This document shows positions 47,447 through 64,000 of a stretch of 64,000 nt of DNA, piece after piece. How positions within the stretch are numbered: the stretch's first letter is position 1; the number at the start of each line of letters is the position of its first letter. The notes under the pieces are model-generated. The model was not told the origin of the DNA. It saw nothing but the letters and a program-made list of their open reading frames with translations, and did no database searches. The translations under genes were made by a program, and so were the position numbers. Origin of the DNA: Streptomyces erythrochromogenes (GTDB lineage Bacteria > Actinomycetota > Actinomycetes > Streptomycetales > Streptomycetaceae); contig NZ_CP108036.1 of assembly GCF_036170895.1 (NCBI RefSeq), forward strand, positions 1,364,001-1,428,000, given 5' to 3'.

Positions 47447-48685
47447 TCAGAACCAGGTGAGGGTGAGGGGGAAGGCCGCGCCCGCGGTGGCTCCGGTGGA
47501 GTCGGTCGCGGTGGCGGTGATCCGGACCGTGCCGCCGCCCCAGGGCCGGCCGGTGATCCGCCCGGAGGCGCTGTCGAGGGTCAGCCCCCAGGGCAGGCCG
47601 GTGGCGGCGTACCGGACGGGGGGCTTCCCGCCGGTGGTGGTGAGCTGGATGGTGCAGGGCTGGTTGAACTTGCACGCCTGCGGCCCGGGATCGGCGAGCC
47701 TCAGGTCGCCGGGGGTGGGCGTGGGGGTCGGGGTGGGCGTGGGTGTGGGCGTCGGGGTGGATCCGCAGCCCGGCGCGGCATCCGGCGGCAGCGGCACCCG
47801 CCAGATCTGGGTGTCGTCCTCCGACCCGACGAGCAGGTTGGCGCAGTCCGCGTACGTGACCGTCTCGCCCTGCGACTGGGCCGGGAGGGCGACGTCCGCG
47901 AGCTTGACCCCGGCCGTGTCGTAGACGGAGGCCGTGTTGGCGCCCAGCGGCCCGCCGCTGCGCAGGACGTAGGAGGCCCCCGACGGGGAGTAGGCGCCGT
48001 CGGTGGCGAACACCGGGGCGGGACCGACCGCCGTGAGGGTGTTGACCTGCCCGGGAAGCGGCGGCAGCGGGGCCCGGTACAGCCGGCCGGTGGCTCCGAT
48101 GAGTTTGCTCGCCACGTACATCCGGCCGGTCACCGGGTCGGCGAGCAGGGACTCGGCGTCGTGCCTGCCGTCGGCGTAGGCGAAGCGGTGGGTCACCGGC
48201 GTGACGGTGGCGTCGGCGAGCCGCTCCGGCTCGGGGAAGGCGTGGACGGTGATCTCGGCGCGCCCGCTGAGGTTGTCCCCGATGTCGCCGACCAGGATCG
48301 CCGGGCCGCCGGCGGCGTCCTTGCCGAGCGCCAGGCCCTCCCAGTCGGTGTTGGCGGCGCCGGAGACGGTGAGGGTGGCCGCAAGCCGGCCGGTCGGGGT
48401 GCTGCAGTCGACGGCGAACACCTGGTTCGTGTTGCCGCTGTCGTTGACGGCGTAGAAGACGCCGGGGTGCCTGCGGCTCATGGCGATGCCGCTGAGCTCG
48501 GCCAGTCCGCCGGGCAGGGTGCACTTCTTCTCCGGCGCCAGGGACGGGGCCGCGGCCGCCACCGCGGTGTCGGAGGGGGCCGGGGAGGCGGTGGCACTGG
48601 TCATCCAGGCGGCCGCGGGCAGGATCGTGGCGAGGGCCGCGGTCGCGAGGGCGGCGGCCCGGGGAGCTGTCAGGAGTGGGGACAT
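47447..48685 (-). CDS. Secreted beta-propeller-like protein with TP-repeat linker and Ig-like domain
   Basis: A 412-residue exported protein; the signal peptide ends near ATASPAPSD. Residues ~55-300 look like a propeller or SdiA-type repeat domain (GLAELSGIAMSRRHPGVFYAVND-like opening, NTDWEGLALGKDAAGGPAILVGDIGDN). A (TP)n linker encoded at about 47712-47760 separates it from a C-terminal putative Ig domain (YAATGLPWGLTLDSASGRIT), the He_PIG type seen in secreted proteins. It has no recognised catalytic residues. ATG 48685 was chosen because the signal peptide starts there; ATG 48694 and 48760 are upstream alternatives without a clear ribosome site. Confidence 0.72.
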   Translation of the reverse strand: MSPLLTAPRAAALATAALATILPAAAWMTSATASPAPSDTAVAAAAPSLAPEKKCTLPGGLAELSGIAMSRRHPGVFYAVNDSGNTNQVFAVDCSTPTGRLAATLTVSGAANTDWEGLALGKDAAGGPAILVGDIGDNLSGRAEITVHAFPEPERLADATVTPVTHRFAYADGRHDAESLLADPVTGRMYVASKLIGATGRLYRAPLPPLPGQVNTLTAVGPAPVFATDGAYSPSGASYVLRSGGPLGANTASVYDTAGVKLADVALPAQSQGETVTYADCANLLVGSEDDTQIWRVPLPPDAAPGCGSTPTPTPTPTPTPTPTPGDLRLADPGPQACKFNQPCTIQLTTTGGKPPVRYAATGLPWGLTLDSASGRITGRPWGGGTVRITATATDSTGATAGAAFPLTLTWF

Positions 48686-48822
48686 GTGCACCATGTGAGG
48701 GGACGAACGGCGCCGGCGCCAGGCCCAACCTCCTCCCGTTCGAGCATCGTTCAATGCCACGGGTGCATGTGGCGCGTTTCCGTCGGGGCATGTCCGGTCG
48801 GGGCAGGTACGGACAAGGCGTG

Positions 48823-48882
48823 TTCGGTCGGGACACGTCCGGTCGGGCCACGTTCGGTCAGCGCACGTCCCGTCAGCGCACG
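48823..48882. repeat. Four tandem 15-bp repeats at the 3' end of the LysR gene
   Basis: Units of consensus TYCSGTCRGSVCACG lie head-to-tail at 48823, 48838, 48853 and 48868, with weaker copies further left from 48791. The last unit contains the LysR stop codon (48873-48875). The rest of the 187-bp gap to the beta-propeller gene holds no gene. Confidence 0.75.
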
Positions 48883-49766
48883 GGCTCGCGGACCGGGGCC
48901 TTGTGCCCGGCCTGCGCGATGAACGCGCGGGCGGCGCGGCTCAGCGGCCGCCGGGCGTGGGCGATGCCCACCGGGCGCAGCAGGGGCGGGGTGAAGGAGC
49001 GGATCTCCGCCCGACTCCCGAACGCCCTCAACACCACGTCCCGGTACCAGATGAGGGAGCCGCGGCCGTCCGTCACACCCGTCACCCAGGCGAGGCGTTC
49101 GTCGACTTCTAGGGAGGGCACGGGCCGCACCCCCAGGCAGCTGAACATGGCCTCCATCTCCGTACGCCGGCCGGTGCCGGGGGTGGGCAGCACCATCGGC
49201 AGTCCGTCGAGCATGCGGAACGGCACCGGGTCGGGCAGCCGGGAGCCGACCGGGGAGATCAGCACCACCTCGCGTTCCTGGATGAAGTGGGTGGAGAGCT
49301 CCTTGTCGACGGGCAGGTCGACCAGGGCCAGCTCCGACCGCCCCTGGGTCAGTGCCTCGACCAGCGCTTCCCGGCTGCTGTGCTGCTGGAGCCGCACGTC
49401 GACGTTCGGGTGGCGCTCGGTGAAGGCGACGATCAGGTCGGCGGCCAGGTCCAGCGCCAGGGTGGGGGTGCTGACGAGGGTGAGCACCGCCCTGGTGTCC
49501 TTGCCGTGCGAGATCCCGATGTCGTCGATGGCCTCCACCGCGTTGAGCACGGTGCGGGCCAACCGGACGACCCGGGCCCCCTCCGGTGTGAGGTCCACCC
49601 CCCTTCCCCGGCGGGCGAGGAGTTCGACCCCCAGGTCCCGTTCCATGGCCTGGACGGCCCGGGACAGGGCGGATTGGGCGACGAAGACCGAGGCCGCGGC
49701 GCCGGTGATGGACCGGCAGTCCGCGACGGCGACGAGATACCGGAGCTGGGCGAGGGTGGGGGTCAT
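48873..49766 (-). CDS. LysR-family transcriptional regulator divergent from the PKS cluster
   Basis: A 297-residue LysR protein. The winged HTH covers LAQLRYLVAVADCRSITGAA and SVFVAQSALSRAVQAMERDL; the effector-binding domain follows (VLTLVSTPTLALDLAADLIV). ATG 49766 is the start. It is transcribed away from the polyketide genes across a 464-bp gap and is the nearest regulator to them, so it may control the cluster. Its own 3' end runs into a 15-bp tandem repeat. Confidence 0.87.
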   Translation of the reverse strand: MTPTLAQLRYLVAVADCRSITGAAASVFVAQSALSRAVQAMERDLGVELLARRGRGVDLTPEGARVVRLARTVLNAVEAIDDIGISHGKDTRAVLTLVSTPTLALDLAADLIVAFTERHPNVDVRLQQHSSREALVEALTQGRSELALVDLPVDKELSTHFIQEREVVLISPVGSRLPDPVPFRMLDGLPMVLPTPGTGRRTEMEAMFSCLGVRPVPSLEVDERLAWVTGVTDGRGSLIWYRDVVLRAFGSRAEIRSFTPPLLRPVGIAHARRPLSRAARAFIAQAGHKAPVREPVR

Positions 49767-50046
49767 GACCGGACGGTAACCGCGCGGGGCCGTACCTGTA
49801 AGGGCTCGTCCGGTGAACAACTTCCCGCGACCGGCGTGACGTTCATGCCCGGTCGGCCCCCAGGCATACCGGTGCGGCATGCCCGCGGCGCCGCCGTACG
49901 CCGGCCCGCGCGGCCGGCCCGGCCCGGGCCGGCCGGGATCGCCGCAGGTCAAAGGCTCGGCGAGGGCGGCCGGTGGGGCCGCCCACGGGCCGCGCCGGGT
50001 GTGCCCGGGGTACCGATAATGCGAAGCGCCCTCCTCCGCACGGCTG

Positions 50047-50075
50047 TTGACAGTGCACAGCGCCCCCCGCACGAT
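50047..50075 (+). promoter_or_regulatory. Candidate promoter of the PKS operon
   Basis: A perfect TTGACA (50047-50052) is followed by 17 bp and CACGAT (50070-50075), ~155 bp before the PKS start. The -10 is weak (matching A and final AT only), which would fit activator dependence. Nothing else was recognised in the 464-bp gap 49767-50230. Confidence 0.4.
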
Positions 50076-50230: not shown

Positions 50231-53200
50231 GTGATCCCCCATCCCCCACAGTCTCCCGCCGTCCGCGACCTGGTCGTCGCGGTCAGCCCCTTCGAGGAGC
50301 CCCGTCCGCGGATCGTGACCGCCGCCGAACGTGCCGGGGCCCTCGGGCTGCTCGATCTCGGGCGGGACGCGAGCGCCGCCCGCCGCGCACTCGCGGAACT
50401 GGGCCGCCGGCTCGGCGGTGCTTCCCCCGGCACCGGCGCCTCCCCCGGCAGCGGCGCGGCCGCGGGCGCGGGCCGGTACGGCGTGCGGGTGCCCGCCGGC
50501 TGCCCGCTGGGGCCCGGGGACCTGCCGCCCGAGGTGGACACGGTGCTGCTCGCCGACCCCGCGTCACTCACCCCCGGCAGGGTGGCCGACTGGGCCGCGG
50601 CGGCCGGCCGGCCGCGGGTCTGGGCCGAGGTCACCACCCTTTCCGAGGCCACGACCGCGGTGGCCGCCGGCGCGCACTCCCTCGTCGCCAAGGGACACGA
50701 GGCCGGCGGCCGGGTGGGCGGGAGCACCACCTTCGTCCTGCTCCAGCAGCTCCTCGCGGACCCCGCGATCGGCCTGCCCGTACTGGCCTGCGGCGGGATC
50801 GGGCCGCACACGGCGGCCGCGGCCGTCGCGGGCGGGGCCGCCGGAGTGCTGCTCGACGTACAACTGGCCCTGACCGTCGAGGGAGAGGCCGACCTGCCGC
50901 ACGAAGTGGCGGCCGCACTGCGGGCGATGGACGGATCGCAGACCCGGGTCCTGAACGGGCACAGGGTGTTCGCCCGGCCCGACCTGACCCCGCCAGAAGG
51001 CCCGGTGGCCGGCCTGCTCGGCGCACGGGACCTGCGCACGCAGCTCCTGCCCGTCGGGCAGGACGGTGCGTGCTCCGCCCGGCTGGCCGCCCGCCACCGG
51101 ACCACCGGCGGCGTGCTCCAGGCCGTACGCGAGGCCGTCACCGGGCATCTGGCGGACGCCGTACGGTCCGAGCCGCTCCTCGGGCCGCTGCCCGTCGCGC
51201 AGGGACCGATGACCCGGGTGAGCGACCAGGCGGCCTTCGCCGGGGCGGTGGCCGCCGCGGGCGGGGTCCCCTACCTCGCGCTGGCCGTCATGGAGGGCCC
51301 GGACGTACGCCGGCTCCTCGCCGAGACCGCCGAGCGGCTCGGGGACCTCCCGTGGGGCGTCGGCCTGCTCGGCTTCGCCCCGCCCGAGCTGCGGCGGGAG
51401 CAACTGGCGGCGGTGACCGGGGCCCGCCCGCCGTACGCGATCATCGCCGGCGGCACCCCGGCGCAGGCCGCCCCGCTGGAGGCGGCCGGGATCCGCACCC
51501 ACCTGCACGTGCCCTCGCCGGGCCTGCTGGAGCGCTACCTCGCGGAAGGAGCGCGGCGGTTCGTCTTCGAGGGCCTGGAATGCGGCGGGCACGTCGGGCC
51601 GCGCGCCTCCTTCCCCCTCTGGGAGGAGCAGATCGATCTGCTGCTGCGCTCCTGCCCCGACCCGGCCGCCCTGGACGTCCTGTTCGCGGGCGGGATCCAC
51701 GACGAGCGGTCCGCCGCGATGGCCGTGGCGGCCGCCGCACCGCTGGCCGGGCGGGGCGCGCGGATCGGGGTGCTGATGGGCACCGCGTACCTGTTCACGG
51801 AGGAGGCCGTGGCGGCGGGCGCGGTGCTGCCGGGGTTCCAGCGGGCGGCACTGGAGTGCGCGGACACCGTGCTTCTGCACACCGCGCCCGGACACGCCAC
51901 CCGCTGCGCGTCCACCCCGTACGCCGCGACCTTCGAGGCGACCCGGCGGCGGCTCGCGGAGAGCGGCGTCGAACCGCGTGAGATGTGGGAGGAGCTGGAG
52001 CGGCTGAACCTGGGGCGGCTGCGGATCGCCAGCAAGGGCCTGCGACGGCCCCCCGGCGGGGGTGCGCCGGAGCCCGTCTCCGAGGAACGGCAGGCGGCCG
52101 ACGGCCTGTTCATGCTCGGTCAGGCGGCGACCCTGCGCACGCGGACCACGACGGTCGCGGCCCTGCACGCCCAGGTCACCGAAGGTGCCACCGCATGGCT
52201 GGAACGGCGGGCCGAGGAGCTGGCCGCCGGCGAGCCGCTCGGGGCCGCCGACCCGGTGGACGTCGCCATCGTGGGCATGGCCTGCGCCTACCCGGGCGCG
52301 CAGGACCTCGCCGCCTACTGGGCGATGGTCCTCGCCGGGACGGACGCGGTCACCGAGGTGCCGGCCGAGCGCTGGGACCCGGCGCTCTACTACGACGCCG
52401 ATCCGGCCCGGGCCGGGGAGCGCACGCCCTCCCGCTGGGGCGGTTTCCTCGGCCCGGTGCCCTTCGACGCGCTCGCGCACGGTATCCCGCCCGCCTCCCT
52501 CTCCGCGATCGAGCCGGTGCAGCTGCTGGCCCTGGAGATCTCGGCGCGGGCCCTCGCCGACGCCGGCTACGGCAGGGACCGCGCCTTCGACCGCTCCCGG
52601 ACGTCGGTGGTCTTCGGCGCGGAGGCCGGCACCGAACTGGCCGGCGCATACGGGCTGCGCGCCCTGCACCCGGCCTACCTCGGCGACCTCCCGGCCGCCC
52701 TGGACGAGCAGCTGCCGCGGCTCACCGAGGACTCCTTCCCCGGGATCCTCGCCAACGTCATCGCCGGCCGCGTGGCCAACCGTCTCGACCTGGGCGGCGC
52801 GAACTGCACGGTGGACGCCGCCTGCGCCTCCTCCCTCGCCGCGCTCGACCTCGCCTGCCGGCAACTGCGCGACGGGGACAGCGACATGGTGCTGTGCGGC
52901 GGCGCCGACGTGCACAACGGCATCAACGACTACCTGATGTTCGCCTCCGTCCACGCCCTGTCCCCCGGCGGCCGCTGCCGGCCCTTCGACGCCGCCGCCG
53001 ACGGGATCGCCCTCGGCGAGGGCGTCGGCGCGGTCGTACTGAAGCGGCTGGCGGACGCGGAACGCGACGGCGACCGGGTGTACGCCGTGGTCAAGGCGGT
53101 GGGCGCCGCCAGCGACGGCCGGTCCCTCGGCCTGACGGCCCCGCGGCCCGAGGGCCAGCGACGGGCCCTGGAACGGGCCTACGCGCGCGCGGGCATCGCC

Positions 53201-56200
53201 CCTGCGGAGGTGGGCCTGATCGAGGCGCACGGCACCGGCACGGTGGTCGGCGACAGCACCGAACTGGCCGTACTGAGCGACCTGTTCACCGCATCCGGCG
53301 CCACCGCCGGAGCCTGTGCACTGGGTTCCGTGAAATCCCAGCTCGGCCACACCAAGTGCGCGGCCGGGCTGGCCGGACTGATCAAAGCCGCCCGCGCCGT
53401 CCACTCGGGCGTCCGGCCGCCCACCCTCCACATCGGCACCCCGAACCCGGCCTGGCGGCCGGAAGCCAGCCCCTTCTCCTTCGACACCGAACCCCGGCCC
53501 TGGACCGTACCCGCCCACCGGCGCTTCGCGGGGGTGAGCGCCTTCGGCTTCGGCGGCACCAACTACCACGCCGTGCTGGCCGGTTACGGAGGCTCGGAAG
53601 AGCCCCGGCACGGCCTGGAGGAATGGCCGGCCGAGCTGTTCTGCTTCCGCGGCGCGGACCGCCGGTCGGCGGGCCGCGCGATGGCACGGCTCGCGGCGCG
53701 CCTGGAGGAGAACGACACGGCGGGGCGCCCCTGGACCCTGCGGGACCTCGCGGCCGAGACCGCTCCGGGCGACGCGCCCGTGGCTGTGGCCGTGGTGGCC
53801 TCGGACCTCGACGAACTGGCGGTCCGCCTGGAGCAGGCCCGGTCCTACACCCCGGGCCCGGGCGTCCACGTACGGGAGGAGTCCGCGGACCCGGTCCGGG
53901 TGGCGTTCCTGTTCCCCGGCCAGGGCAGCCAACGCCCCCGCATGCTGGGCCGGTTGTTCACCGCCTTCCCCGGTCTGCGCGGCCTGCTGGACACGGCTCC
54001 CCCGGAAGTGGTGTCGGCGATGTTCCCGCCGGCGGCGTTCACCGCCGAGGGGCGGGCCGCGCAGCGGGCGGCGGTCACCGACACCCGGGTCGCCCAGCCG
54101 GCCCTCGGCCTGGCGGGAGCCGCGGCGCACCGGTTGCTCGGCGAACTCGGCGTACGGCCCGACTGCGTGGCCGGGCACTCGTACGGGGAGCTCACCGCGC
54201 TGTGGGCGGCGGGGGCCTACGACACGCAGAGCCTGCTCCGGCTGAGCGCACACCGCGCCGAGGCGATCCTGGCGGCGGCCGGCGCGGACCCGGGGGCGAT
54301 GGCGGCGGTGTCGGCCGCGCCGGAGGAGGTCCGGGAGCTCGCCGCCCGTGCGGGGTGTGTGGTGGCGAACCACAACGCGCCGCGGCAGTGCGTGATCTCG
54401 GGCCCGTCGCCGGCCGTCGCCGCGGCGGTGGCCGCACTGCGCGAGGCGGGCCTGCCGGCGGAGCCGATCCCGGTCGCCTGCGCGTTCCACAGCGAGGTGG
54501 TGGCGGGGGCGGCGGCCTCCCTGGCCGGGGAACTGGCGCGGACGCCGGTGACCGCGCCGGCCGTCCCGGTGTGGTCGAACACGACGGCCGAGCGGTATCC
54601 GGCGACGGCCGAAGGCGTACGCAGCCTTGCGGCTCGCCAGGTCGCCGAGCCGGTCCGGTTCGTGGAACAGGTGGAGGCCATGTACGCGGCCGGCGTGCGG
54701 ACCTTCGTGGAGGCGGGGCCCGGGCGGGTCCTGTCCGGACTCGTCGGCCGGATCCTCGGCGAGCGCCCGCACACGGCGGTCCCGCTGGACGTGCCGGGCG
54801 AAGACGGCCTGGTCCGCCTGGTCACGGCGCTGGCCGAACTGACGGCGGCGGGCGTTCCGGTGGCCCCGGAGGCCCTCTTCCGCGGCCGGACCTCCCGCCT
54901 CCCGGACCGCGCCCCGCGCCGGCCGGGCTGGCTGGTGGACGGCCACCTGGTCCGCACGACGGACGGCACCCCGGTCCGAGGCGGCCTGCAGCCGGCCCGC
55001 CGCGTACGGATCCCTGCGGCGCCGGAAACGGGTACGGCGGCAACCGGCACGGGAGCGGGCACGGAGTCCGACACGACGAGGAAGACGGCCATGGCCGACG
55101 AGGGAGCGTGGTCGACGATGAACGGCACGGGCACAGGCACGGCCACCACCAGGCCGATACCGTCGGCCGGCTCGGACGGCTCGGACGGCTCGGCCTCGGA
55201 CGGGCGCGAAGAGGCGGTACTGGAGTACCTGCGCGGCGCCCGCGCCCTGGTGGAGGCCCAACGGGACGTCCTGCTGGCCTACTTGGGCACCCCGCGCCCG
55301 CCCGACGGCCAAGGCGGTTCCGGCGGGGTCGGGAGCGTGCGGGGACGATCCCCGCAGGGCGCCGAACGCACCGCCGCCACACGCCCCGACCCGGAGGCCC
55401 GTTCTTCGGCGGCCGAGGAGACGCCCCGGCGCGCGCCCGGCCCCGCCGGAACCGCCCCCGGCGAAGCCCCCCGCGAAGCGCCCGGCACGGGCCCCCGCCC
55501 GGGACCCCGCTCCGCCCAGGACGTCATGGACGTGGTCCTGGACATCGTCCACACCCGGACCGGCTACCCCCTGGACATGCTCGACCCCGACCTGGACCTG
55601 GAGGCGGACCTCTCCATCGACTCCATCAAGCGCGTGGAGATCATCGGAGCCCTCGCCGACCGGATCGGCCTCCCCCAGGCCCCGGACCGGACCCCGGACC
55701 AGGACGGATCCGCCGAGTCCGCGATCGAGGAGCTGTCCCGGCTCAAGACCCTGCGCGGCATCGTGGACTGGGTCACCTCCCACACCCCCGGCGGCCCGAC
55801 CGCGGAATCGGAACCCGCCGCACCGGCGGTCGGCCGGCTCCGCGTGGACCTCTCCCCCCTCCCCCCGGCCGACGGCGACCCGGCAGCCCTCCACGGTCTG
55901 CGGATCGGGATCGTCGAGGACGACCAGGGCCTCGCGCCCGCCCTCGCCGCCGCCCTGGAGGCCCTGGGCGCCGAACCGCGGATCCTCCGCACGGCCGAGG
56001 CCGGGCTCGACGGCATCGTCGACCTGTCCTCCCTGCGGGCGGGAGCCGAACCCGTACTGCCCGAAGCCTTCCCGGGCCTGCGCAACGCCCTGACCGGCGG
56101 AATCCCAAGGCTGCTGCTCGTCGCCGCCGGCGGCCCGGGCGCCCCCGGCGGAGCCGGACTGCACGGCTTCGCCCGCTCCGCCGCCCTCGAATTCCCCGCC

Positions 56201-57283
56201 GCGCTGGTGCGCGCCGTGGACGTCCACCCCAAGGAGGACCCGGAGCGCGTCGCCGCGCAGCTCGTCTGCGAACTGGGCTCCTCCCTCCCGGCCCACGCCT
56301 CCGTCGGCTACACCCCCGAGGGGACGCGTGTCGCCCGCCGGCCGGTGCCCGCTCCCCTGCCCGCCCCGGACGGGCCCCGGCCCGCCCTCCTGGACCCGGG
56401 CTCGGTGGTCCTCCTCACGGGCGGGGCCCGCGGGATCACCGCACGCACGGCGCTCGCCCTGGCCCGCGCGACCGGATGCCACATCGAACTGGTCGGCCGC
56501 ACCCCCGAGCCGCCCCCCTCGCCGAGCCCCTCTCCGAACCCCGCGGCGGACGCGTTCGCGCACGCCCAGGACCGCGTCGCGCTGCGCGCCGCCCTGATCG
56601 CCTCCGGACTGCGCAGGCCCGCGGAAATCGAGGCGGCGGCCTCGCGGATCCTCGCCGAGCGCGAGGTGCGGGCCACCCTCACCGCCCTCGCCGCGGTGGC
56701 GGCCTCCGTCCGCTACCACTGCGCGGACGTCACCGACGAGCGGGCCGTACGGGCGGTCGTGGCCGACGTACGGGAGCGCCACGGACGGCTGGACGGCATC
56801 GTGCACGGCGCCGGGATCCTGCGCGACGGGCTGCTGCGCGACAAGCGGCCGGAGGACTTCACCGAGGTGTTCACCACCAAGGTGGCCGGGGCCCGGCACC
56901 TGGCTGCCGCGGCCGCCGAGCACGGGACGTGGCCCGCGCCCCGCTTCCTGGCCCTGTTCGGCAGCGTCGCGGGGGTGTACGGGAACCGCGGGCAGAGCGA
57001 CTACGCCGCGGCCAACGACGCGCTCGACGGCCTCGCGCACACCTGGGCGGAGTCCTTCCCCGGGCGGGTGCTGTCCGTCGACTGGGGACCCTGGGCGGCC
57101 GAAGCGGGCGGGATGGTCACTCCCGAGCTGGAGCGCGCCTACGCCCAGCGCGGTGTCCCGCTCCTCGCACCGGACGCCGCAGCCTCCGCCTTCCTCGACG
57201 AACTGGCCCGCGGGAGCGACGTACAGGTGGTCCTGATGGCGCCGTCGGCACCCACGGCACCGGAGGGCTCCGGCGATGAGTGA
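50231..57283 (+). CDS. Iterative type I PKS of PUFA/HglE type: NPD-NPD-KS-AT-ACP-KR
   Basis: A 2350-residue synthase starting at GTG 50231 after GAAGAGGAG. Domains in order: a first FabK/nitronate-monooxygenase-like barrel (~10-260; AKGHEAGGRVGG has Arg161 where the catalytic His would be); a second, intact barrel (~310-600; FEGLECGGHVGP, His454), giving a likely enoyl reductase; KS (~675-1110; Cys865 in DAACASS, His1000 in EAHGTGT, His1040 in GHTKCAAG); AT (~1222-1530; Ser1317 in GHSYGE, His1420 in AFHS, malonyl-type); ACP (~1755-1840; Ser1798 in SIDSIKRVEI, the PUFA-synthase style motif); KR (~2050-2340; TGGARGIT, Ser2245, Tyr2258, Asn2262). It builds and reduces an acyl chain. Its stop overlaps the next gene. 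Confidence 0.88.
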   Translation: MIPHPPQSPAVRDLVVAVSPFEEPRPRIVTAAERAGALGLLDLGRDASAARRALAELGRRLGGASPGTGASPGSGAAAGAGRYGVRVPAGCPLGPGDLPPEVDTVLLADPASLTPGRVADWAAAAGRPRVWAEVTTLSEATTAVAAGAHSLVAKGHEAGGRVGGSTTFVLLQQLLADPAIGLPVLACGGIGPHTAAAAVAGGAAGVLLDVQLALTVEGEADLPHEVAAALRAMDGSQTRVLNGHRVFARPDLTPPEGPVAGLLGARDLRTQLLPVGQDGACSARLAARHRTTGGVLQAVREAVTGHLADAVRSEPLLGPLPVAQGPMTRVSDQAAFAGAVAAAGGVPYLALAVMEGPDVRRLLAETAERLGDLPWGVGLLGFAPPELRREQLAAVTGARPPYAIIAGGTPAQAAPLEAAGIRTHLHVPSPGLLERYLAEGARRFVFEGLECGGHVGPRASFPLWEEQIDLLLRSCPDPAALDVLFAGGIHDERSAAMAVAAAAPLAGRGARIGVLMGTAYLFTEEAVAAGAVLPGFQRAALECADTVLLHTAPGHATRCASTPYAATFEATRRRLAESGVEPREMWEELERLNLGRLRIASKGLRRPPGGGAPEPVSEERQAADGLFMLGQAATLRTRTTTVAALHAQVTEGATAWLERRAEELAAGEPLGAADPVDVAIVGMACAYPGAQDLAAYWAMVLAGTDAVTEVPAERWDPALYYDADPARAGERTPSRWGGFLGPVPFDALAHGIPPASLSAIEPVQLLALEISARALADAGYGRDRAFDRSRTSVVFGAEAGTELAGAYGLRALHPAYLGDLPAALDEQLPRLTEDSFPGILANVIAGRVANRLDLGGANCTVDAACASSLAALDLACRQLRDGDSDMVLCGGADVHNGINDYLMFASVHALSPGGRCRPFDAAADGIALGEGVGAVVLKRLADAERDGDRVYAVVKAVGAASDGRSLGLTAPRPEGQRRALERAYARAGIAPAEVGLIEAHGTGTVVGDSTELAVLSDLFTASGATAGACALGSVKSQLGHTKCAAGLAGLIKAARAVHSGVRPPTLHIGTPNPAWRPEASPFSFDTEPRPWTVPAHRRFAGVSAFGFGGTNYHAVLAGYGGSEEPRHGLEEWPAELFCFRGADRRSAGRAMARLAARLEENDTAGRPWTLRDLAAETAPGDAPVAVAVVASDLDELAVRLEQARSYTPGPGVHVREESADPVRVAFLFPGQGSQRPRMLGRLFTAFPGLRGLLDTAPPEVVSAMFPPAAFTAEGRAAQRAAVTDTRVAQPALGLAGAAAHRLLGELGVRPDCVAGHSYGELTALWAAGAYDTQSLLRLSAHRAEAILAAAGADPGAMAAVSAAPEEVRELAARAGCVVANHNAPRQCVISGPSPAVAAAVAALREAGLPAEPIPVACAFHSEVVAGAAASLAGELARTPVTAPAVPVWSNTTAERYPATAEGVRSLAARQVAEPVRFVEQVEAMYAAGVRTFVEAGPGRVLSGLVGRILGERPHTAVPLDVPGEDGLVRLVTALAELTAAGVPVAPEALFRGRTSRLPDRAPRRPGWLVDGHLVRTTDGTPVRGGLQPARRVRIPAAPETGTAATGTGAGTESDTTRKTAMADEGAWSTMNGTGTGTATTRPIPSAGSDGSDGSASDGREEAVLEYLRGARALVEAQRDVLLAYLGTPRPPDGQGGSGGVGSVRGRSPQGAERTAATRPDPEARSSAAEETPRRAPGPAGTAPGEAPREAPGTGPRPGPRSAQDVMDVVLDIVHTRTGYPLDMLDPDLDLEADLSIDSIKRVEIIGALADRIGLPQAPDRTPDQDGSAESAIEELSRLKTLRGIVDWVTSHTPGGPTAESEPAAPAVGRLRVDLSPLPPADGDPAALHGLRIGIVEDDQGLAPALAAALEALGAEPRILRTAEAGLDGIVDLSSLRAGAEPVLPEAFPGLRNALTGGIPRLLLVAAGGPGAPGGAGLHGFARSAALEFPAALVRAVDVHPKEDPERVAAQLVCELGSSLPAHASVGYTPEGTRVARRPVPAPLPAPDGPRPALLDPGSVVLLTGGARGITARTALALARATGCHIELVGRTPEPPPSPSPSPNPAADAFAHAQDRVALRAALIASGLRRPAEIEAAASRILAEREVRATLTALAAVAASVRYHCADVTDERAVRAVVADVRERHGRLDGIVHGAGILRDGLLRDKRPEDFTEVFTTKVAGARHLAAAAAEHGTWPAPRFLALFGSVAGVYGNRGQSDYAAANDALDGLAHTWAESFPGRVLSVDWGPWAAEAGGMVTPELERAYAQRGVPLLAPDAAASAFLDELARGSDVQVVLMAPSAPTAPEGSGDE

Positions 57284-60200
57284 ACGACGGCCACGGCAGG
57301 GCGGCGGCCCCCGCCCGACCGACGCGGCGATCGTCGGGATGGGCGCGGTGTTCCCCGGAGCCGCCGATCTGGCCGCCTACCGCCGCAATCTCCTCGCCGG
57401 TACGGACTGCATCGGCGACGTCCCGCCCGAACGCTGGGACCCGGAGGTGTACTTCGACCCGGAGGCGGCCGCCGGGCCCGCGGCCGGCGACCGCTTCTAC
57501 TGCCGGCGCGGCGGCTTCGTCGACGGTCTCGCCGCCTTCGACCCGACCCGGTTCGGAATCATGCCGGCCGCCGTGGAGGGCGCCGAACCCGACCAGATGC
57601 TGGCCCTGCACGCGACGGCCGAGGCGATCGCCGACGCCGGCGGCGAGGACCGGCTGCCGGCCGACCGCTCGCGGATCGGGGTGGTGCTGGGCCGCGGCGG
57701 GTTCATGGGCGTGGCCACCGCCCGGCTGGACCAACGGGTGCGTACGGCGCACCAGTTGGCGCAGACCCTGCGCGAACTGGCGCCGGAGCTGGGCGAGCGG
57801 CGGATCGCCGCGGTGCGCTCGGCCTTCCAGGACGCCCTGGGGCCGGAACGGCCCGACGCCTCGATCGGGCTCGTCCCGAGCTTCACGGCGGCCCGGACCG
57901 CGAACCGGCTGGACCTGCGCGGGCCCGCCTACACGCTCGACGCGGCCTGCGCCTCCTCCCTGCTGGCGGTGGACCAGGCCGTGGGGCTGCTGGCGGCCGG
58001 GCGCTGCGACGCGGTGGTCGCCGGGGCGGTGCACCACTGCCACATCGCGACGCTGTGGAGCGTCTTCACCCAGCTGCGGGCGCTCAGCCCGAGCGGGTCC
58101 ATCAGGCCCTTCGACCGCAGGGCCGACGGGACCCTGCTGTCCGAGGGCACCGGGGTGGTGCTCCTCAAGCGGCTGGCGGACGCGGAGCGGGACGGCGACC
58201 GCGTGTACGCGGTGGTCCGCGGGACGGGCGTGGCCGGGGACGGCCGCGCGGCGAGCCTGATGAGCCCCCTGGTCGCGGGCCAGGTACGGGCCCTGGAGCG
58301 GGCCTGGCGGGAGGCCGGCCTGGACCCGCGGGAGGCGGGCGCGCTGGGGCTGCTGGAGGCGCACGGCACGGGCACCCCGGTCGGGGACGCCGCCGAACTG
58401 GACACCCTGGCGCAGGTCTTCGGCCCGCCGGGGCCGGACGGGCCCGGGATCGGCTTCGGTTCGGTGAAGTCGATGCTCGGGCACACGATGCAGGCCTCGG
58501 GCATGGCCGGGCTGATCAAGGCCGCGCTCGCGGTGCACGAGGGGGTGCTGCCGCCGACGCTGCACCTGGAGGAACCGCACCCCGACCTGGCCCGGACCCG
58601 GATGCGGCCGGTGGCCGCGGCGCAGCCGTGGGAGCGCGGTCCGGCGCCCCGCCGGGCCGGGGTCAACGCCTTCGGCTTCGGTGGGATCAACGCGCACGCG
58701 GTGCTGGAGGAGGCCCCGGCGGCCGCCCGCCCGAGGCTCCCGGTGCGACGTTTCCTGCCGCTGGGCGGCGCGGTCGCGCCCTCGGGTCCGGCCGCGCACG
58801 GCGACGTACTCCTGATCGGGGCGGACACCCCGGCCGAGCTGTCGGCGCGGCTGGCGGCCGCCTCCCCCGTGTCCGGGGGCGAGGGGCCCTGCCGGGTCGC
58901 GGTGGTCGGGCCGACGCCCCAGCGGCTCGCGCTGGCGGCGAAGGTGGTGGCGCGCGGCCGGCCGTGGCGCGGCCGCGGCGACGTGTGGTTCGCGCGGCAG
59001 CCGCTGGGCGGGCAGGTGGCGTTCCTGTTCCCGGGCCTGGAGCCGGAGTTCGCGCCCGTGGTCGACGACGTCGCGGAGCGGTTCGCGCTGACGCCGCCCC
59101 GCCTCACCCGGGGCGCGTCGCTCGTGGAACGTGCCCTGGACGCGATCGCGACCGGCCGCTTCTACGCCCGGGTCCTGCCGGCCCTCGGCGTCGGGGCCGA
59201 CGTACTGGCGGGCCACAGCCTGGGCGAGTGGGCGGCGATGGTGGCGGCCGGCATGTATCCGCAGGAGGCCGCCGACACCTTCCTGGACTCGCTGCGCCCG
59301 GGCGACCTGCGGGTCCCGGACCTCGTGTACGCGGCGCTGGGCTGCGGCGCGCCCCGGGCGCAGGCAGCGCTGCACGGCATGGACCGGGTGGTGCTCAGCC
59401 ACGACAACTGCCCGCACCAGTCGGTGGTCTGCGGCGAACCGGACCAGGTGGCGGCCGTGGTCGCCCGCCTGCGCGCCGACGGGGTCCTCGGCCAGGAGCT
59501 GCCGTTCCGTTCGGGCTTCCACACCCCGATGTGGGAGCCGTACCTCGGCCAGGTCCGCGCGGCCTTCGACCGGCTGCCGCTGCGGCCCGGCTCCCTCCCG
59601 GTCTGGTCGGCCACGACGTGCGCGCCGTTCCCGTCCGCTCCGCGGGACGTGCGGAACCTGGTGGTCCGTCACCTCCTGGAGCCGGTCCGCTTCCGCGAGC
59701 TGGCCCTGGGGCTCTACGAGCAGGGCGTGCGCACCTTCGTCATCCTGGGTCCGGGCAGCCTGCCCGGCTTCGTCGAGGACACCCTGCGCGACCGCCCCCA
59801 CCTCTCGGTGTCCACCTCCGCACCCCGGCTCGGCGGCCTCGCGGCCCTGGAACGCACCTGCGCCGCCCTCTGGTCCGAGGGCCACACGGTGTTCCCTGCG
59901 GGAAGCCCGACGTGGCTCAAGGCCGGGGCCGGGCCGCGCGACCGCCCGCGGGTAGGGGCCTCGGCCGAGGCCGCAGGAGGCAGGTCCCCGGTCGGGGCCG
60001 AGCCCGGCTCCGCTCAGACCGGCGCACCGGTGCCACCGGGGACCGCAGGCCGCCCGGACTTCCGGCCGGGGACGGCCCGGGTCGGTGACGGGCGGAGCCC
60101 GGTCGGCGCGGCCGAACCGGACCGCGCCGCGGGCACCGGTACGGGCTGCGCCGTCCCCCTGGACCTCGGGTCGCCGTTGGTGCGGCTCGGCGAGGAGGCC

Positions 60201-62084
60201 CGGGCCTCCCTGGCCGGCATGCTCGCCCCGGCCCCGGCCCCGGCACCCGCCGCGCGGCCGGTGGACCGGCCGGTGCTGCTGTCCGCTCTGGACGCCGTAC
60301 TCGCCGACACCGACGCGGCCGCTCGGGCCGTGACCGGGGCATGGACGGCATCGGGAAGCGCTCCGGGGCCGGGCCGGAGGACCGAGCCGGAGGCCGGGAC
60401 CGGAACGGGGCCCAGCCCGGGAGCCGCCCCGGACGCCGGGAGCGGAGCCGGGTCGGGCCTTGCGGCCGGTGCCGCAGGAGGCGGGGCGCAGACCCTCCGG
60501 CTTTCCCTCGCCGAGCTGCCCTGCGTACGGGACCACTGCGTCTACCTCCAGCCCGACGGCTGGTCCGAGGACTCCGACCGGTTCCCCGTCGTGCCCATGA
60601 CCACCATGCTGGAGCTGGCCGCCGACGCCGCCCGGCGGCACGCCCCGCCCGGCCTCGCCGTCGTCGGCTACGAGGACGTACGGGCCCTGCGGTGGCTCGC
60701 CGTCGAGCCGGCCGTCGACGTCGAGGTCTCCGTCCGCCCGGACGGGCCCGGCCGGATGCGCGTCGCGCTCGGCGCCTACGCCTCGGTGGTCGTGCTGTTC
60801 GGCGAGCGGTACGAAGGGCCGCCGGCACCCGACGGCACGCCGCTGCGCGACGCCGGGCCGGCCCCGGTCAGCGCCGAGGCCCTCTACCGGGACCGGTGGA
60901 TGTTCCACGGGCCGCGTTTCGCCGGGGTCCACGAGGTCCGGGCGGTCGGCTCGGACGGCATCCACGGCGTGCTGCGGGTCCTGCCCGACCCGGGTGCGCT
61001 CCTCGACGCCGCAGGGCAGCTCTTCGGGCACTGGATGCAGCTTCGGCTCCCGGTGGACCGGCTGGTGTTCCCGGCCACCGTGGACCGCATCCGCCTCTAC
61101 GGTCCGCCGCTGGCCCCGCCGGAGCTGCTCGCCGCCACCGCCCGGATCCGTGCCGTGCAGGACGTCACCGTACGCGGGGACGTCGAGTTGCGCCGGCCCG
61201 GCGGCGAGGTGTGGGCCCGGATCGAGGGGTGGACGTACCGCCGCTTCGGCGCCGACGAGCGGGTCTGGCCGATGAAGTTCACCCCGGAGGTCTGCGGCAT
61301 CGGCGAGCCCCGGCCGGAGGGCTGGTGCCTGGCGCGGCGCCGCTGGAGCGATCCCGCCTCTCAGGAGCTGGTGATGCGCCGCTACCTCGGCGCCGCCGAG
61401 CGGGAGGTCTACGAGCGGCTGGCGCCGCGGGCCCGGGCGCCCTGGCTGCTGGGCCGGATCGCGGCCAAGGACGCGCTGCGCGGGCTGCTGTGGGACGGCG
61501 GTGCCGGGCCGGTGTTCCCGGCCGAGGTTCCGGTCGGCAACGACCCCGCCGGCCGGCCGCTGGCCGAGGGGCCGCTCACCCGCGGCTTCCGGCTGTCGAT
61601 CGCCCACAAGGACCGGATCGCGGTCGCCCTCGCCCACCCCGACCGGGCGGTCGGCATCGATGTCGAGGCGGTGACCGCCGACCCGGACGCGCTGGTCCGG
61701 ATAGCCCTCGGGCCGGGTGAACTCCGGCTCGCCGAAAGGCTGGCCGCCCACGGGGACCGCGGCCTGCCGGCCGCGCTGACCGCGCTGTGGTGTGCCAAGG
61801 AGGCCGCCGCGAAGGCGGACGGCGGCGGGCTGGGCGGCCGGCCCCGGGACTGGCGGGTGACCGGCGACCGGGATTCCGGCGAGCTGCTCGTGACGTCCCC
61901 CGACGGCGCCCCGTACCCGGTCCGCACCACCCTGCTCACCGGTACTCCGCCCGCCGACCCGGCGATCGCCGGCCCGCCGGTCACCGCGCCACCGACCGAT
62001 CACGTCGTCGCCTGGACCCCGCACCCCGCGGCGGCGGCGCCCGCCGTCCCCTTCCACCTCACGGAGACCCGTCATGGCAACTGA
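57276..62084 (+). CDS. Iterative PKS partner: KS-AT-DH with fused phosphopantetheinyl transferase
   Basis: A 1602-residue protein. KS (~8-490): Cys225 in DAACASS, His363 in EAHGTGT, His403 in GHTMQASG, all intact. An AT (~580-880) has FLFPGLEPEF in place of FPGQGSQ and Ser648 in GHSLGEWAAM, His749 in GFHTPMWEP, reminiscent of PfaB. A ~190-residue Ala/Gly/Pro linker follows. DH (~1078-1345): His1087 in VRDHCVYLQPDGW. The C-terminus (~1350-1580) is an Sfp-type transferase with GIDVEAV (Asp1462, Glu1464) and WCAKEAAAKA (Lys1508-Lys1513), which could activate the cluster's own ACPs. ATG 57276 overlaps the previous stop by 8 nt. Confidence 0.88.
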   Translation: MSERRPRQGGGPRPTDAAIVGMGAVFPGAADLAAYRRNLLAGTDCIGDVPPERWDPEVYFDPEAAAGPAAGDRFYCRRGGFVDGLAAFDPTRFGIMPAAVEGAEPDQMLALHATAEAIADAGGEDRLPADRSRIGVVLGRGGFMGVATARLDQRVRTAHQLAQTLRELAPELGERRIAAVRSAFQDALGPERPDASIGLVPSFTAARTANRLDLRGPAYTLDAACASSLLAVDQAVGLLAAGRCDAVVAGAVHHCHIATLWSVFTQLRALSPSGSIRPFDRRADGTLLSEGTGVVLLKRLADAERDGDRVYAVVRGTGVAGDGRAASLMSPLVAGQVRALERAWREAGLDPREAGALGLLEAHGTGTPVGDAAELDTLAQVFGPPGPDGPGIGFGSVKSMLGHTMQASGMAGLIKAALAVHEGVLPPTLHLEEPHPDLARTRMRPVAAAQPWERGPAPRRAGVNAFGFGGINAHAVLEEAPAAARPRLPVRRFLPLGGAVAPSGPAAHGDVLLIGADTPAELSARLAAASPVSGGEGPCRVAVVGPTPQRLALAAKVVARGRPWRGRGDVWFARQPLGGQVAFLFPGLEPEFAPVVDDVAERFALTPPRLTRGASLVERALDAIATGRFYARVLPALGVGADVLAGHSLGEWAAMVAAGMYPQEAADTFLDSLRPGDLRVPDLVYAALGCGAPRAQAALHGMDRVVLSHDNCPHQSVVCGEPDQVAAVVARLRADGVLGQELPFRSGFHTPMWEPYLGQVRAAFDRLPLRPGSLPVWSATTCAPFPSAPRDVRNLVVRHLLEPVRFRELALGLYEQGVRTFVILGPGSLPGFVEDTLRDRPHLSVSTSAPRLGGLAALERTCAALWSEGHTVFPAGSPTWLKAGAGPRDRPRVGASAEAAGGRSPVGAEPGSAQTGAPVPPGTAGRPDFRPGTARVGDGRSPVGAAEPDRAAGTGTGCAVPLDLGSPLVRLGEEARASLAGMLAPAPAPAPAARPVDRPVLLSALDAVLADTDAAARAVTGAWTASGSAPGPGRRTEPEAGTGTGPSPGAAPDAGSGAGSGLAAGAAGGGAQTLRLSLAELPCVRDHCVYLQPDGWSEDSDRFPVVPMTTMLELAADAARRHAPPGLAVVGYEDVRALRWLAVEPAVDVEVSVRPDGPGRMRVALGAYASVVVLFGERYEGPPAPDGTPLRDAGPAPVSAEALYRDRWMFHGPRFAGVHEVRAVGSDGIHGVLRVLPDPGALLDAAGQLFGHWMQLRLPVDRLVFPATVDRIRLYGPPLAPPELLAATARIRAVQDVTVRGDVELRRPGGEVWARIEGWTYRRFGADERVWPMKFTPEVCGIGEPRPEGWCLARRRWSDPASQELVMRRYLGAAEREVYERLAPRARAPWLLGRIAAKDALRGLLWDGGAGPVFPAEVPVGNDPAGRPLAEGPLTRGFRLSIAHKDRIAVALAHPDRAVGIDVEAVTADPDALVRIALGPGELRLAERLAAHGDRGLPAALTALWCAKEAAAKADGGGLGGRPRDWRVTGDRDSGELLVTSPDGAPYPVRTTLLTGTPPADPAIAGPPVTAPPTDHVVAWTPHPAAAAPAVPFHLTETRHGN

Positions 62085-62400
62085 CATCCTCGCCGAGATC
62101 ACCGGCATGCTCGTGGAGATCGTCGGCGACGAGTACCTGCTCGCGGAGGAGGTCACGATGAAGACGACGTTCAACGAGGACCTCGCCCTGGAGAGCGTCG
62201 AGTTCGTCGCCCTCGCCGAGCTGCTCCACCATCGCTACGGCGCGGACGTGGATCTGATGGGCTTCCTCGCGGAAAAGGACATGGACGCCATCCTGGCCAT
62301 GTCCGTCGGCGAACTCGTCACCCACATCGGCCGGATCACCCGGTCGTCCCTGGCCCGGGCCCACGTCTCGGCGGGCGACTCTCCCGCGTCGGCCGGCTGA
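62074..62400 (+). CDS. Acyl carrier protein
   Basis: A free-standing 108-residue carrier protein, ATG 62074, whose start lies inside the end of the upstream PKS gene (11-nt overlap). The phosphopantetheine site is Ser41 in NEDLALESVEFVALAELL, with the downstream helix HHRYGADVDLMGFLAEKDMD. The last ~20 residues are a Ser/Ala tail. It may carry the extender or the finished acyl chain to the following hydrolase or glycosyltransferase, being modified by the transferase fused to the neighbouring PKS. Confidence 0.85.
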   Translation: MATDILAEITGMLVEIVGDEYLLAEEVTMKTTFNEDLALESVEFVALAELLHHRYGADVDLMGFLAEKDMDAILAMSVGELVTHIGRITRSSLARAHVSAGDSPASAG

Positions 62401-62407
62401 GCCCGCC

Positions 62408-63268
62408 ATGGCCGTCGTACTCGCCGACTCCCTCCACTTCCACGTCCAGCGACTCCCGGCCGCTGCCGGCGCCGACGCTCCCGACCGTCCCGCCGTGGTG
62501 TTCCTGCACGGCCTGGTCGTCGACAACCTGTCCTCCTTCTACTGTCCGCTGGCCGTGCCGGTGGCCCGGTCCGGGCACGAGGCCGTCCTCTACGACCTGC
62601 GCGGCCACGGCCGCACCGAACGCCCCGCCACCGGCTACGACAGCCGCACCGCCGTACGCGACCTGTTCGCGCTGCTGGCCGCCCTGGGCCTGGGGCACCG
62701 TCCCGTGCACCTGGTCGGCAACAGCTACGGCGGCACCCTCGCCCTGCACGCCGCCCTGGCCCGGCCCGACCGCGTCAGCGGGCTCACCCTCCTCGAACCC
62801 CCGCTCAGCGGAGCCTGGGTGGAGAACATGGTGGACACGCTGTCGGCCGCCGCCCTCAGCCTGGAGGACAGTCCGGTACCCGCCGAGCTGCGCACCCTGC
62901 GGCTGCGCAAGGCCGCCAACCTCACGGCCATCGCCGACGCCCTCCTCAACCGCACGTCGCTCATCGACGACATCGCCGCGAGCCGCCCCTTCACACGGGC
63001 CGACCACGCCCGGCGGGCCTGCCCGGCCCTGATCGTCTGCGGGGAACACTCCGAGCTGGTGCACGGAGCCCGCGAGCTGGCCCGGCACGCACCCCGCTGC
63101 GAGCTGCGGATCCTGCCGGGCCTGGGGCACGACGTCCTCAAGGAGAGCAGCGGGGTCCTGCGGGAAGCCGTGCTCGCCCACATCGCGGCGACGGCCCCGA
63201 CGACCCCGGCGGCCTCATCGGCCGCGGCGACGGCGGCCCGGCCGCGGGCAGGAGCTCTGGTCCGGTGA
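62408..63268 (+). CDS. Alpha/beta hydrolase (possible chain-releasing thioesterase)
   Basis: A 286-residue alpha/beta hydrolase with FLHGLVVDNLSSFY (oxyanion loop), LVGNSYGGTLALHAALARP (nucleophile Ser in GNSYGG), an acid in LIVCGEHSELV and the His in PGLGHDVLKES. It sits directly after the ACP and its stop overlaps the glycosyltransferase start (GTGA), so it probably releases or transfers the acyl chain from the ACP. Ester hydrolysis of another substrate remains possible. The last ~25 residues are an Ala/Thr tail. Confidence 0.82.
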   Translation: MAVVLADSLHFHVQRLPAAAGADAPDRPAVVFLHGLVVDNLSSFYCPLAVPVARSGHEAVLYDLRGHGRTERPATGYDSRTAVRDLFALLAALGLGHRPVHLVGNSYGGTLALHAALARPDRVSGLTLLEPPLSGAWVENMVDTLSAAALSLEDSPVPAELRTLRLRKAANLTAIADALLNRTSLIDDIAASRPFTRADHARRACPALIVCGEHSELVHGARELARHAPRCELRILPGLGHDVLKESSGVLREAVLAHIAATAPTTPAASSAAATAARPRAGALVR

Positions 63269-64000
63269 GGGTGCTGTTCACCGTGCCGCCGCTGGCGGGG
63301 CACGTCAATCCGACCGTGGCCGTCGGGGCCGAACTCGCCGCCCGGGGCCATGAGATCGCCTGGACCGGCCCGGCGGGCGCGCTCGCCCGCCTGCTTCCCG
63401 CCCAGGCCCTGATCCTGCCCGCCGGCGAGGAGGCGGGCGGTGCGTACTCGGAGCTCCACGAGCGCTGGCGGAACCTGCGCGGGGTGGGTGCGCTGCGGTT
63501 CCTGTGGGAGGAGGCGCTGGTGCCGCTGGCCCGGGCGATGGTGCCGGGCGTGGAGCGGGCCGTGCGCGCCTTCGGACCGGACGTGGTGGTCGCCGACCAG
63601 CAGGCCCTGGCCGGACCGCTGGTCGCCCGGCGGCTCGGCGTGCCCTGGGCGACGTCCGCCAGTACCTCGGCCGAACTGACCCGGCCCTTCGCGGACTTCC
63701 CGAAGGTCGGCGAGTGGGTGGCCGGGCAGATCGCCGGCCTGCTCGCGGAGTTCGGCGCGGGCCGGCCGCCGCGGGCAGGGGAGGCACAGGGGTGGGACCC
63801 GAGGTTCTCGGAGCGGCTGGTGCTGGTGTTCTCCACACCCGAACTCGTCGGAACCGCCGGGGAGTTCCCCGCACACCACGCGTACGTCGGCCCGGCGTTC
63901 GGAGCCCGTCCGGCCGCGCCCGGGTTCCCCTGGCAGCGGCTGGATCCGGGGCGCCGGCGCGTACTGGTGTCCCTCGGCACCCTCAACCAGGAGGCCGGCG
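63265..64000 (+). CDS. GT1/MGT-type glycosyltransferase (3' truncated by window)
   Basis: GTG 63265 overlaps the hydrolase stop. The first ~245 residues show the N-terminal acceptor domain of UGT/MGT-type GT-B enzymes: VLFTVPPLAGHVNPTVAVGA, with the His of the H-x-N-P motif as likely catalytic base, then GHEIAWTGPAG and DVVVADQQALAGPLVARRLG. The linker PGRRRVLVSLGTLNQEAG opens the sugar-nucleotide domain, which runs off the window. It probably glycosylates the PKS product. Its C-terminal donor-binding motif is not visible. Confidence 0.85.
   Translation, partial: MRVLFTVPPLAGHVNPTVAVGAELAARGHEIAWTGPAGALARLLPAQALILPAGEEAGGAYSELHERWRNLRGVGALRFLWEEALVPLARAMVPGVERAVRAFGPDVVVADQQALAGPLVARRLGVPWATSASTSAELTRPFADFPKVGEWVAGQIAGLLAEFGAGRPPRAGEAQGWDPRFSERLVLVFSTPELVGTAGEFPAHHAYVGPAFGARPAAPGFPWQRLDPGRRRVLVSLGTLNQEAG

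Follow-up and report, generated by a model that had tools for sequence, protein, structure and literature searches.

The right-hand end of a 64,000-nucleotide stretch of Streptomyces erythrochromogenes DNA (contig NZ_CP108036.1, positions 1,364,001 to 1,428,000; "the window" below) carries most of an operon that we read as encoding an iterative lipid synthase of the kind classified as Type M, resembling the synthases of polyunsaturated fatty acids (PUFAs) and heterocyst glycolipids (Hgl), together with tailoring enzymes that would make a glycosylated long-chain acyl lipid. To this reading, built on sequence comparison, we assign a probability of about 0.75; gene order, domain content, catalytic residues, and conserved linkage are its directly observed basis. 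Relatives are present in many soil actinobacteria, and we found no report of their product. A first-pass annotation of the window had described five same-strand genes and proposed a glycosylated product of a PUFA/HglE-like cluster; the genes are as it described them, while its interpretation is supported in part only.

The frames of these five genes indeed overlap or nearly touch, with junctions of -8, -11, +7, and -4 bp. Overlooked at first was the continuation of the operon beyond position 64000, where two further 4-bp overlaps (-4 and -4) lead into genes for a methyltransferase (MT) and a GalK-like protein. The full run in the genome thus comprises seven genes: PKS1, PKS2, a free acyl carrier protein (ACP), an alpha/beta hydrolase (ABH), a glycosyltransferase (GT), MT, and the GalK-like gene (Table 1). 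Domain calls are from Pfam, and NCBIfam models were used with their curated cut-offs.

For PKS1, Pfam reproduces the claimed order NPD-NPD-KS-AT-ACP-KR, and the active-site residues said to be readable in KS1, AT1, ACP, and KR are all in place. Counted by alignment columns over 59 relatives plus the sequence from the window, the KS1 cysteine and the AT1 serine are each kept in 55 of 60, the ACP serine in 56, and the KR tyrosine in 54; the AFHS of AT1 is presumably a malonyl-type motif. Both NPD domains are present as two NMO stretches, but that both are working reductases is not confirmed. We take position 161 of NPD1 and His454 of NPD2 to be the site of the FabK-type catalytic histidine. Position 161 is arginine in 54/60 sequences and histidine in 0/60, whereas His454 is found in 59/60. 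NPD1 is therefore probably non-catalytic, and we infer that PKS1 has one working enoyl reductase, NPD2.

The order KS-AT-DH-PPTase claimed for PKS2 is likewise matched by Pfam, with every expected active-site residue present. Here the columns cover 75 relatives plus our own sequence. As the Cys, His, and His of KS2 are each found in 76/76, this domain looks like a catalytic KS and not a dead chain-length factor (CLF). The same columns give His 74/76, Asp 75/76, and Gln 75/76 for DH and Ser 69/76 for AT2; the phosphopantetheinyl transferase (PPTase) residues are kept in 50 (Asp), 49 (Glu), and 48 (Lys) of the 76.

The free ACP, too, is borne out: it fails the cut-off of the Pfam PP-binding model (E=0.018), yet its Ser41 is invariant in 69/69 aligned sequences. 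Both the hydrolase and the glycosyltransferase are matched by Pfam. In ABH (n=64), Ser106 is kept in 62 sequences and His241 in all 64; residue 215, the usual acid position, is Ser in 64/64, and residue 130 is Glu in 61 and Asp in 3, which makes Ser106-Glu130-His241 the probable triad. In GT (n=72), His13 is conserved in 66 sequences and Asp111 and Gln327 in all 72. Structural comparison with VIA-align, in which the matches to MT fell on its C-terminal domain, indicates a resemblance of MT to sugar methyltransferases, the nearest folds being C-, not O-, sugar methyltransferases. Its N-terminal part, from 64446 to about 65315, is a separate domain, and this type of domain stands alone as an ~253-amino acid protein in three Actinomadura loci (L072, L078, L079). 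The GalK-like protein has the fold of a galactokinase but lacks the catalytic loops usual in such enzymes; it is a probable pseudokinase and perhaps, by analogy, a Gal3p-like sensor.

Table 1. Features of the operon and its divergent neighbor; coordinates past 64000 are given in continued numbering of the window.
Feature	Position	Strand	Details
LysR-type regulator	48873..50072	-	Pfam HTH_1, LysR_substrate; divergent from operon
PKS1, NPD(pseudo)-NPD-KS-AT-ACP-KR	50231..57283	+	2350 aa, GTG start; Pfam NMO (two stretches), KS, AT, PP-binding, KR
NPD1, FabK/NMO-like	50231..51190 (approximate bounds)	+	probably non-catalytic
NPD2, presumed enoyl reductase	51191..51919	+	NMO/FabK matches, EGLECGGH
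KS1	52259..53434	+	C865/H1000/H1040
AT1	53906..54760	+	S1317, GHSYGE, AFHS
Single ACP in PKS1	55532..55672	+	LSIDSIK; one PP-binding stretch
KR	56405..57097	+	S2245/Y2258/N2262
PKS2, KS-AT-DH-PPTase	57276..62084	+	1602 aa; Pfam KS, AT, PS-DH, ACPS
KS2	57327..58571	+	C225/H363/H403
AT2	59166..59828	+	S648, GHSLGE / SGFHTP
DH	60492..61259	+	H1087, D1244xxxQ1248
PPTase core	61647..61925	+	D1462/E1464/K1513; motifs NDPAGRP (P1a), LSIAH (P1b') just upstream
Free ACP	62074..62400	+	108 aa; motif LALESVEF, Ser41
ABH, alpha/beta hydrolase	62408..63268	+	286 aa; Pfam Abhydrolase
GT	63265..64449 (cut by window end at 64000)	+	394 aa; Pfam UDPGT/EryCIII-like; GT-B, MGT/UDPGT kind
MT, S-adenosylmethionine methyltransferase	64446-66299	+	starts with 4-bp overlap on GT
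GalK-like	66296-67372 (L010:3297-4373)	+	4-bp overlap with MT

In a scan of named genomes, 292 pattern stretches and 250 relatives were found, from which 79 loci were kept and to which two plasmid loci were added; being best matches, the named-genome loci are skewed to close relatives. The series PKS1-PKS2-ACP-ABH-GT is repeated in Streptomyces, Embleya, Actinomadura, Frankia, Skermania, and uncultured members of Pseudonocardiales and Acidimicrobiia. Since this arrangement spans actinobacterial orders, the gene set is not a chance grouping. Where at least 4.5 kb of sequence follows PKS2 (62 loci), all 62 have GT, 57 have ACP, and 52 have ABH; where at least 7.5 kb follows (50 loci), 38 have MT and 31 the GalK-like gene. 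When 150 genomes were drawn evenly from the genus, our own included, PKS2 was found in 49, GT in 50, and both in 48, and GT lay downstream of PKS2 on the same strand, 1,087-2,592 bp away, at 49 of the 50 PKS2 places (the exception being genome G155). At 18 of these 50 places, picked by hand, ACP, ABH, and GT were present in 18/18, MT in 14 (13 of them with the C-terminal half only), and the GalK-like gene in one. Clusters of our own type (at least 66% identity over the DH-PPTase part) make up 11 of the 50. In a class-wide draw, a PKS2 relative occurred in 54 of 394 genomes and 12 of 137 genera. The PKS2 tree groups our sequence with Embleya and one Actinomadura copy, the plasmid type standing apart. 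In the two plasmid loci (L091, L092), from Streptomyces sp. NBC_01243 and NBC_00984, a six-gene unit lies on large linear plasmids with transposase genes directly downstream, an arrangement which suggests that the unit can move as one.

Among known systems, the PfaABCD synthases of Shewanella and Moritella share with PKS1 the KS-AT-ACP-KR order and a FabK-like enoyl reductase, and the LSIDSIK motif of its ACP also occurs in PUFA synthases. Unlike PfaABCD, the present system has one ACP in place of 4-6, a single intact KS2 with no CLF seen, a fused PPTase, and GT and ABH within the operon. The secondary lipid synthases have been sorted into Types A-T (Shulse and Allen, 2011; PMC3098273). Type M, with members in Actinosynnema, three Frankia, Renibacterium, and S. 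avermitilis, is described there with no product listed, and the word "glycosyl" is absent from the text of that paper as available to us. Like Type M, our operon has a fused ER-KS-AT-ACP-KR protein (pfaD joined to pfaA) and a pfaBC-like KS-AT-DH protein with a PPTase (ACPS) domain; fused pfaDA and pfaBC-PPTase genes are also described as a Renibacterium-like arrangement (PMC13291983). The PPTases of Types M-T carry P1a x(G/D)xP and P1b' hShxH motifs and no P0 (PMC3098273). Ours, with AGRP and LSIAH, and no P0 in a pattern search of PKS2, resembles Types M-T as a group and not M alone. Here, too, relatives occur in Streptomyces and in Frankiaceae, where 32 of 35 genomes carry a PKS2 relative. 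By layout, motifs, and Frankia presence, then, the operon fits Type M, a family that was published in 2011 without a product and that the first-pass annotation had overlooked. The PUFA/HglE-like label that it used instead holds as a likeness, PfaA (TIGR02813) being the best NCBIfam match of PKS1 and the PPTase motifs fitting the lipid-synthase set of PMC3098273, but not at the level of the PfaA cut-off (888.3 bits against 1010.1). No characterized cluster of this kind was found in the literature searched, which was accessible in part and from which absence in print does not follow.

In the pathway that these parts would allow, the built-in PPTase would activate the ACPs, AT1 would load malonyl units, and KS1 and/or KS2 would carry out condensation. 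Reduction of the β-carbon would then fall to KR, DH, and the single NPD that is likely active, with some cycles probably stopping at the hydroxyl, and the hydroxylated, largely reduced long chain would pass to the free ACP. GT may place a sugar, probably from a UDP-hexose, on a chain hydroxyl; ABH, with its Ser-Glu-His triad, may release or esterify the chain; MT may methylate, perhaps the sugar; and the GalK-like protein probably acts as a partner without catalytic activity of its own. The prediction of a glycosylated product draws support from the conserved linkage of GT and from the resemblance of MT to sugar methyltransferases. Type M synthases would thereby gain a steady set of partners (free ACP, Ser-Glu-His hydrolase, GT, and often MT), and the label "PUFA-like" would become a testable glycolipid claim for 49 of the 150 sampled genus genomes and 32 of 35 Frankiaceae.

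Several observations weigh against this interpretation. PKS1 scores below the curated PfaA cut-off, and its full fusion is not constant: in Frankia loci L044 (7768-9924) and L045 (8245-9993) the gene is split, with the ACP-KR part in a different frame from KS-AT. ABH is absent in 10 of 62 loci, all of them Actinomadura, and a methyltransferase fold alone gives no function for MT. Five Actinomadura loci (L041, L070, L084, L088, L090) have lost the KS1 cysteine (5/5), the AT1 serine (4/5), and the KR tyrosine (5/5), and their PKS1 ACP motif is altered or absent. In PKS2 of the same loci, the AT serine and the PPTase motifs are lost from frames that remain open, with KS2 kept; DH is retained in four, L088 having a His-to-Gln change. 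The synthase of these loci thus looks, from its residues, to have kept one active half. Four of these loci lack ABH and all five retain GT, which implies that GT can be kept where PKS1 no longer works.

Another proposal takes the chain to be a free PUFA or polyene and gives GT a role in self-protection or inactivation, as a glycosyltransferase of the macrolide kind. The nearest models and solved structures do include macrolide enzymes (TIGR01426, matched with 182 bits, under its cut-off of 260; oleandomycin glycosyltransferase; YjiC). Against it, GT is steadier than ACP or ABH in the 62 long loci and overlaps both neighbors by 4 bp, and such constancy is unusual in resistance genes; we consider this proposal quite unlikely. 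An EPA-type (eicosapentaenoic acid) operon like S. coelicolor SCO0126-SCO0127, another actinobacterial PUFA-like synthase, is the most improbable of the alternatives. That cluster carries the eicosapentaenoic acid label in a Streptomyces genome paper (PMC5932044), but it belongs to Type L, in which the layout is KS-CLF-DH2-AT and the PPTase motifs are P0 and P1b (PMC3098273). Compared by description, its P1b motif, (F/S)NxSH, differs from our P1b', LSIAH, and our KS2 is intact and P0 absent. An initial idea that SCO0126-0127 was the same cluster was dropped on account of the Type L assignment (PMC3098273).

Two further proposals are special cases of the glycolipid reading, and their odds overlap with its own. 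One places the sugar on a long fatty alcohol, as in heterocyst glycolipids, giving an envelope lipid such as an oxygen barrier in Frankia vesicles. HglE is itself a PUFA-like synthase with a glycosyltransferase, and in the heterocyst glycolipid locus a thioester reductase releases the alcohol. Among the seven proteins of the operon, the only part of the genome searched for one, Pfam finds no thioester reductase, so that a heterocyst-type sugar-linked alcohol is not supported; the free ACP and ABH also set the operon apart from HglE and the antiSMASH hglE-KS class. A Rhodococcus paper lists an hglE-KS cluster, but its glycolipid passage names other genes (PMC8396431). In Frankiaceae, the 32 of 35 genomes with PKS2 are also those with GT, several of the family's loci in the class-wide draw matching named Frankia loci at 90-100% in the best segment. 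This breadth would suit an envelope lipid, but the synthase is found in 24 of the 25 genomes with nifH over its cut-off and in 8 of the 10 nifH-negative ones (Fisher p=0.19), the two of the latter that lack it being the small genomes of 3.0 and 3.2 Mb, one of which is 63% complete. The synthase is thus nearly a core trait of Frankiaceae but one whose presence does not follow nifH and is not tied to nitrogen fixation, and a vesicle lipid of nitrogen-fixing Frankia is not supported; the vesicle envelope is reported as hopanoid (PMC5745019). We consider the heterocyst-like product highly unlikely.

The other special case takes the product to be a glucolipid macrodiolide of the fattiviracin/cycloviracin class, compounds that to our knowledge are antiviral glycolipids known by structure only. 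Their hydroxyl positions resemble those of the heterocyst glycolipid diols, which a related synthase makes. Fattiviracin and cycloviracin are acylglucose dimers of trihydroxy fatty acids, each with an extra glucose; unlike glucolypsin, cycloviracin has no methyl branch at C2, and its non-cyclic sugars are methoxylated at C2; in the shared macrodiolide backbone, as described for glucolypsin, an ester from C6 of a glucose completes the ring (PMC4365757). The synthase would make trihydroxy C22-28 acids, GT would glucosylate hydroxyls, ABH would join two units via a glucose hydroxyl, and MT would methylate the outer sugars. A reducing synthase, AT1 (presumably malonyl-type), GT, ABH, and a sugar-methyltransferase-like MT match these structures, and the chemistry of fattiviracin, cycloviracin, and macroviracin is within reach of the set. 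A single GT, however, would need several sites of action, the folds nearest MT are not O-methyltransferases, and an operon in 32/35 Frankiaceae genomes is unlike a rare antibiotic. The producers Kibdelosporangium albatum (cycloviracin) and S. microflavus (fattiviracin) are not among the matches listed (the best 120 each of 1031, 608, and 434; 79 loci of 250 relatives), in which many names are absent or shortened and to which the producer genomes were not directly compared. The literature listing searched contained no gene cluster for fattiviracin, cycloviracin, or macroviracin, and we found no literature link between hglE-KS and producers of the first two. We regard this product as rather unlikely; were it correct, the genes for antiviral glycolipids would be at hand. 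A broader version, in which the operon supplies the pathway still lacking for this class and almost all Frankiaceae species, whether or not they fix nitrogen, make a core version of the same glycolipid, is a more doubtful prospect.

Turning to the flanks of the predicted glycolipid operon, the divergent LysR-type gene is a possible cluster regulator; a homologue scoring above 100 bits occurs in 23 of the 81 loci compared, many of which include little upstream DNA. The operon is also flanked by two proteins with He_PIG Ig-like C-terminal domains, at 47447-48760 (minus strand) and about 67401-68657, the latter downstream of the GalK-like gene, preceded by AAGGAG, and having a phosphoesterase domain. 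Homologues of each occur in 22 of 81 loci, and 6 of the 22 for the 47447-48760 protein sit at the phosphoesterase position. Elsewhere in the genome, a second match to the PfaA model (C1:7003905-7006607, L098; 460 bits) has a different layout, KS-AT-ACP-aminotransferase.
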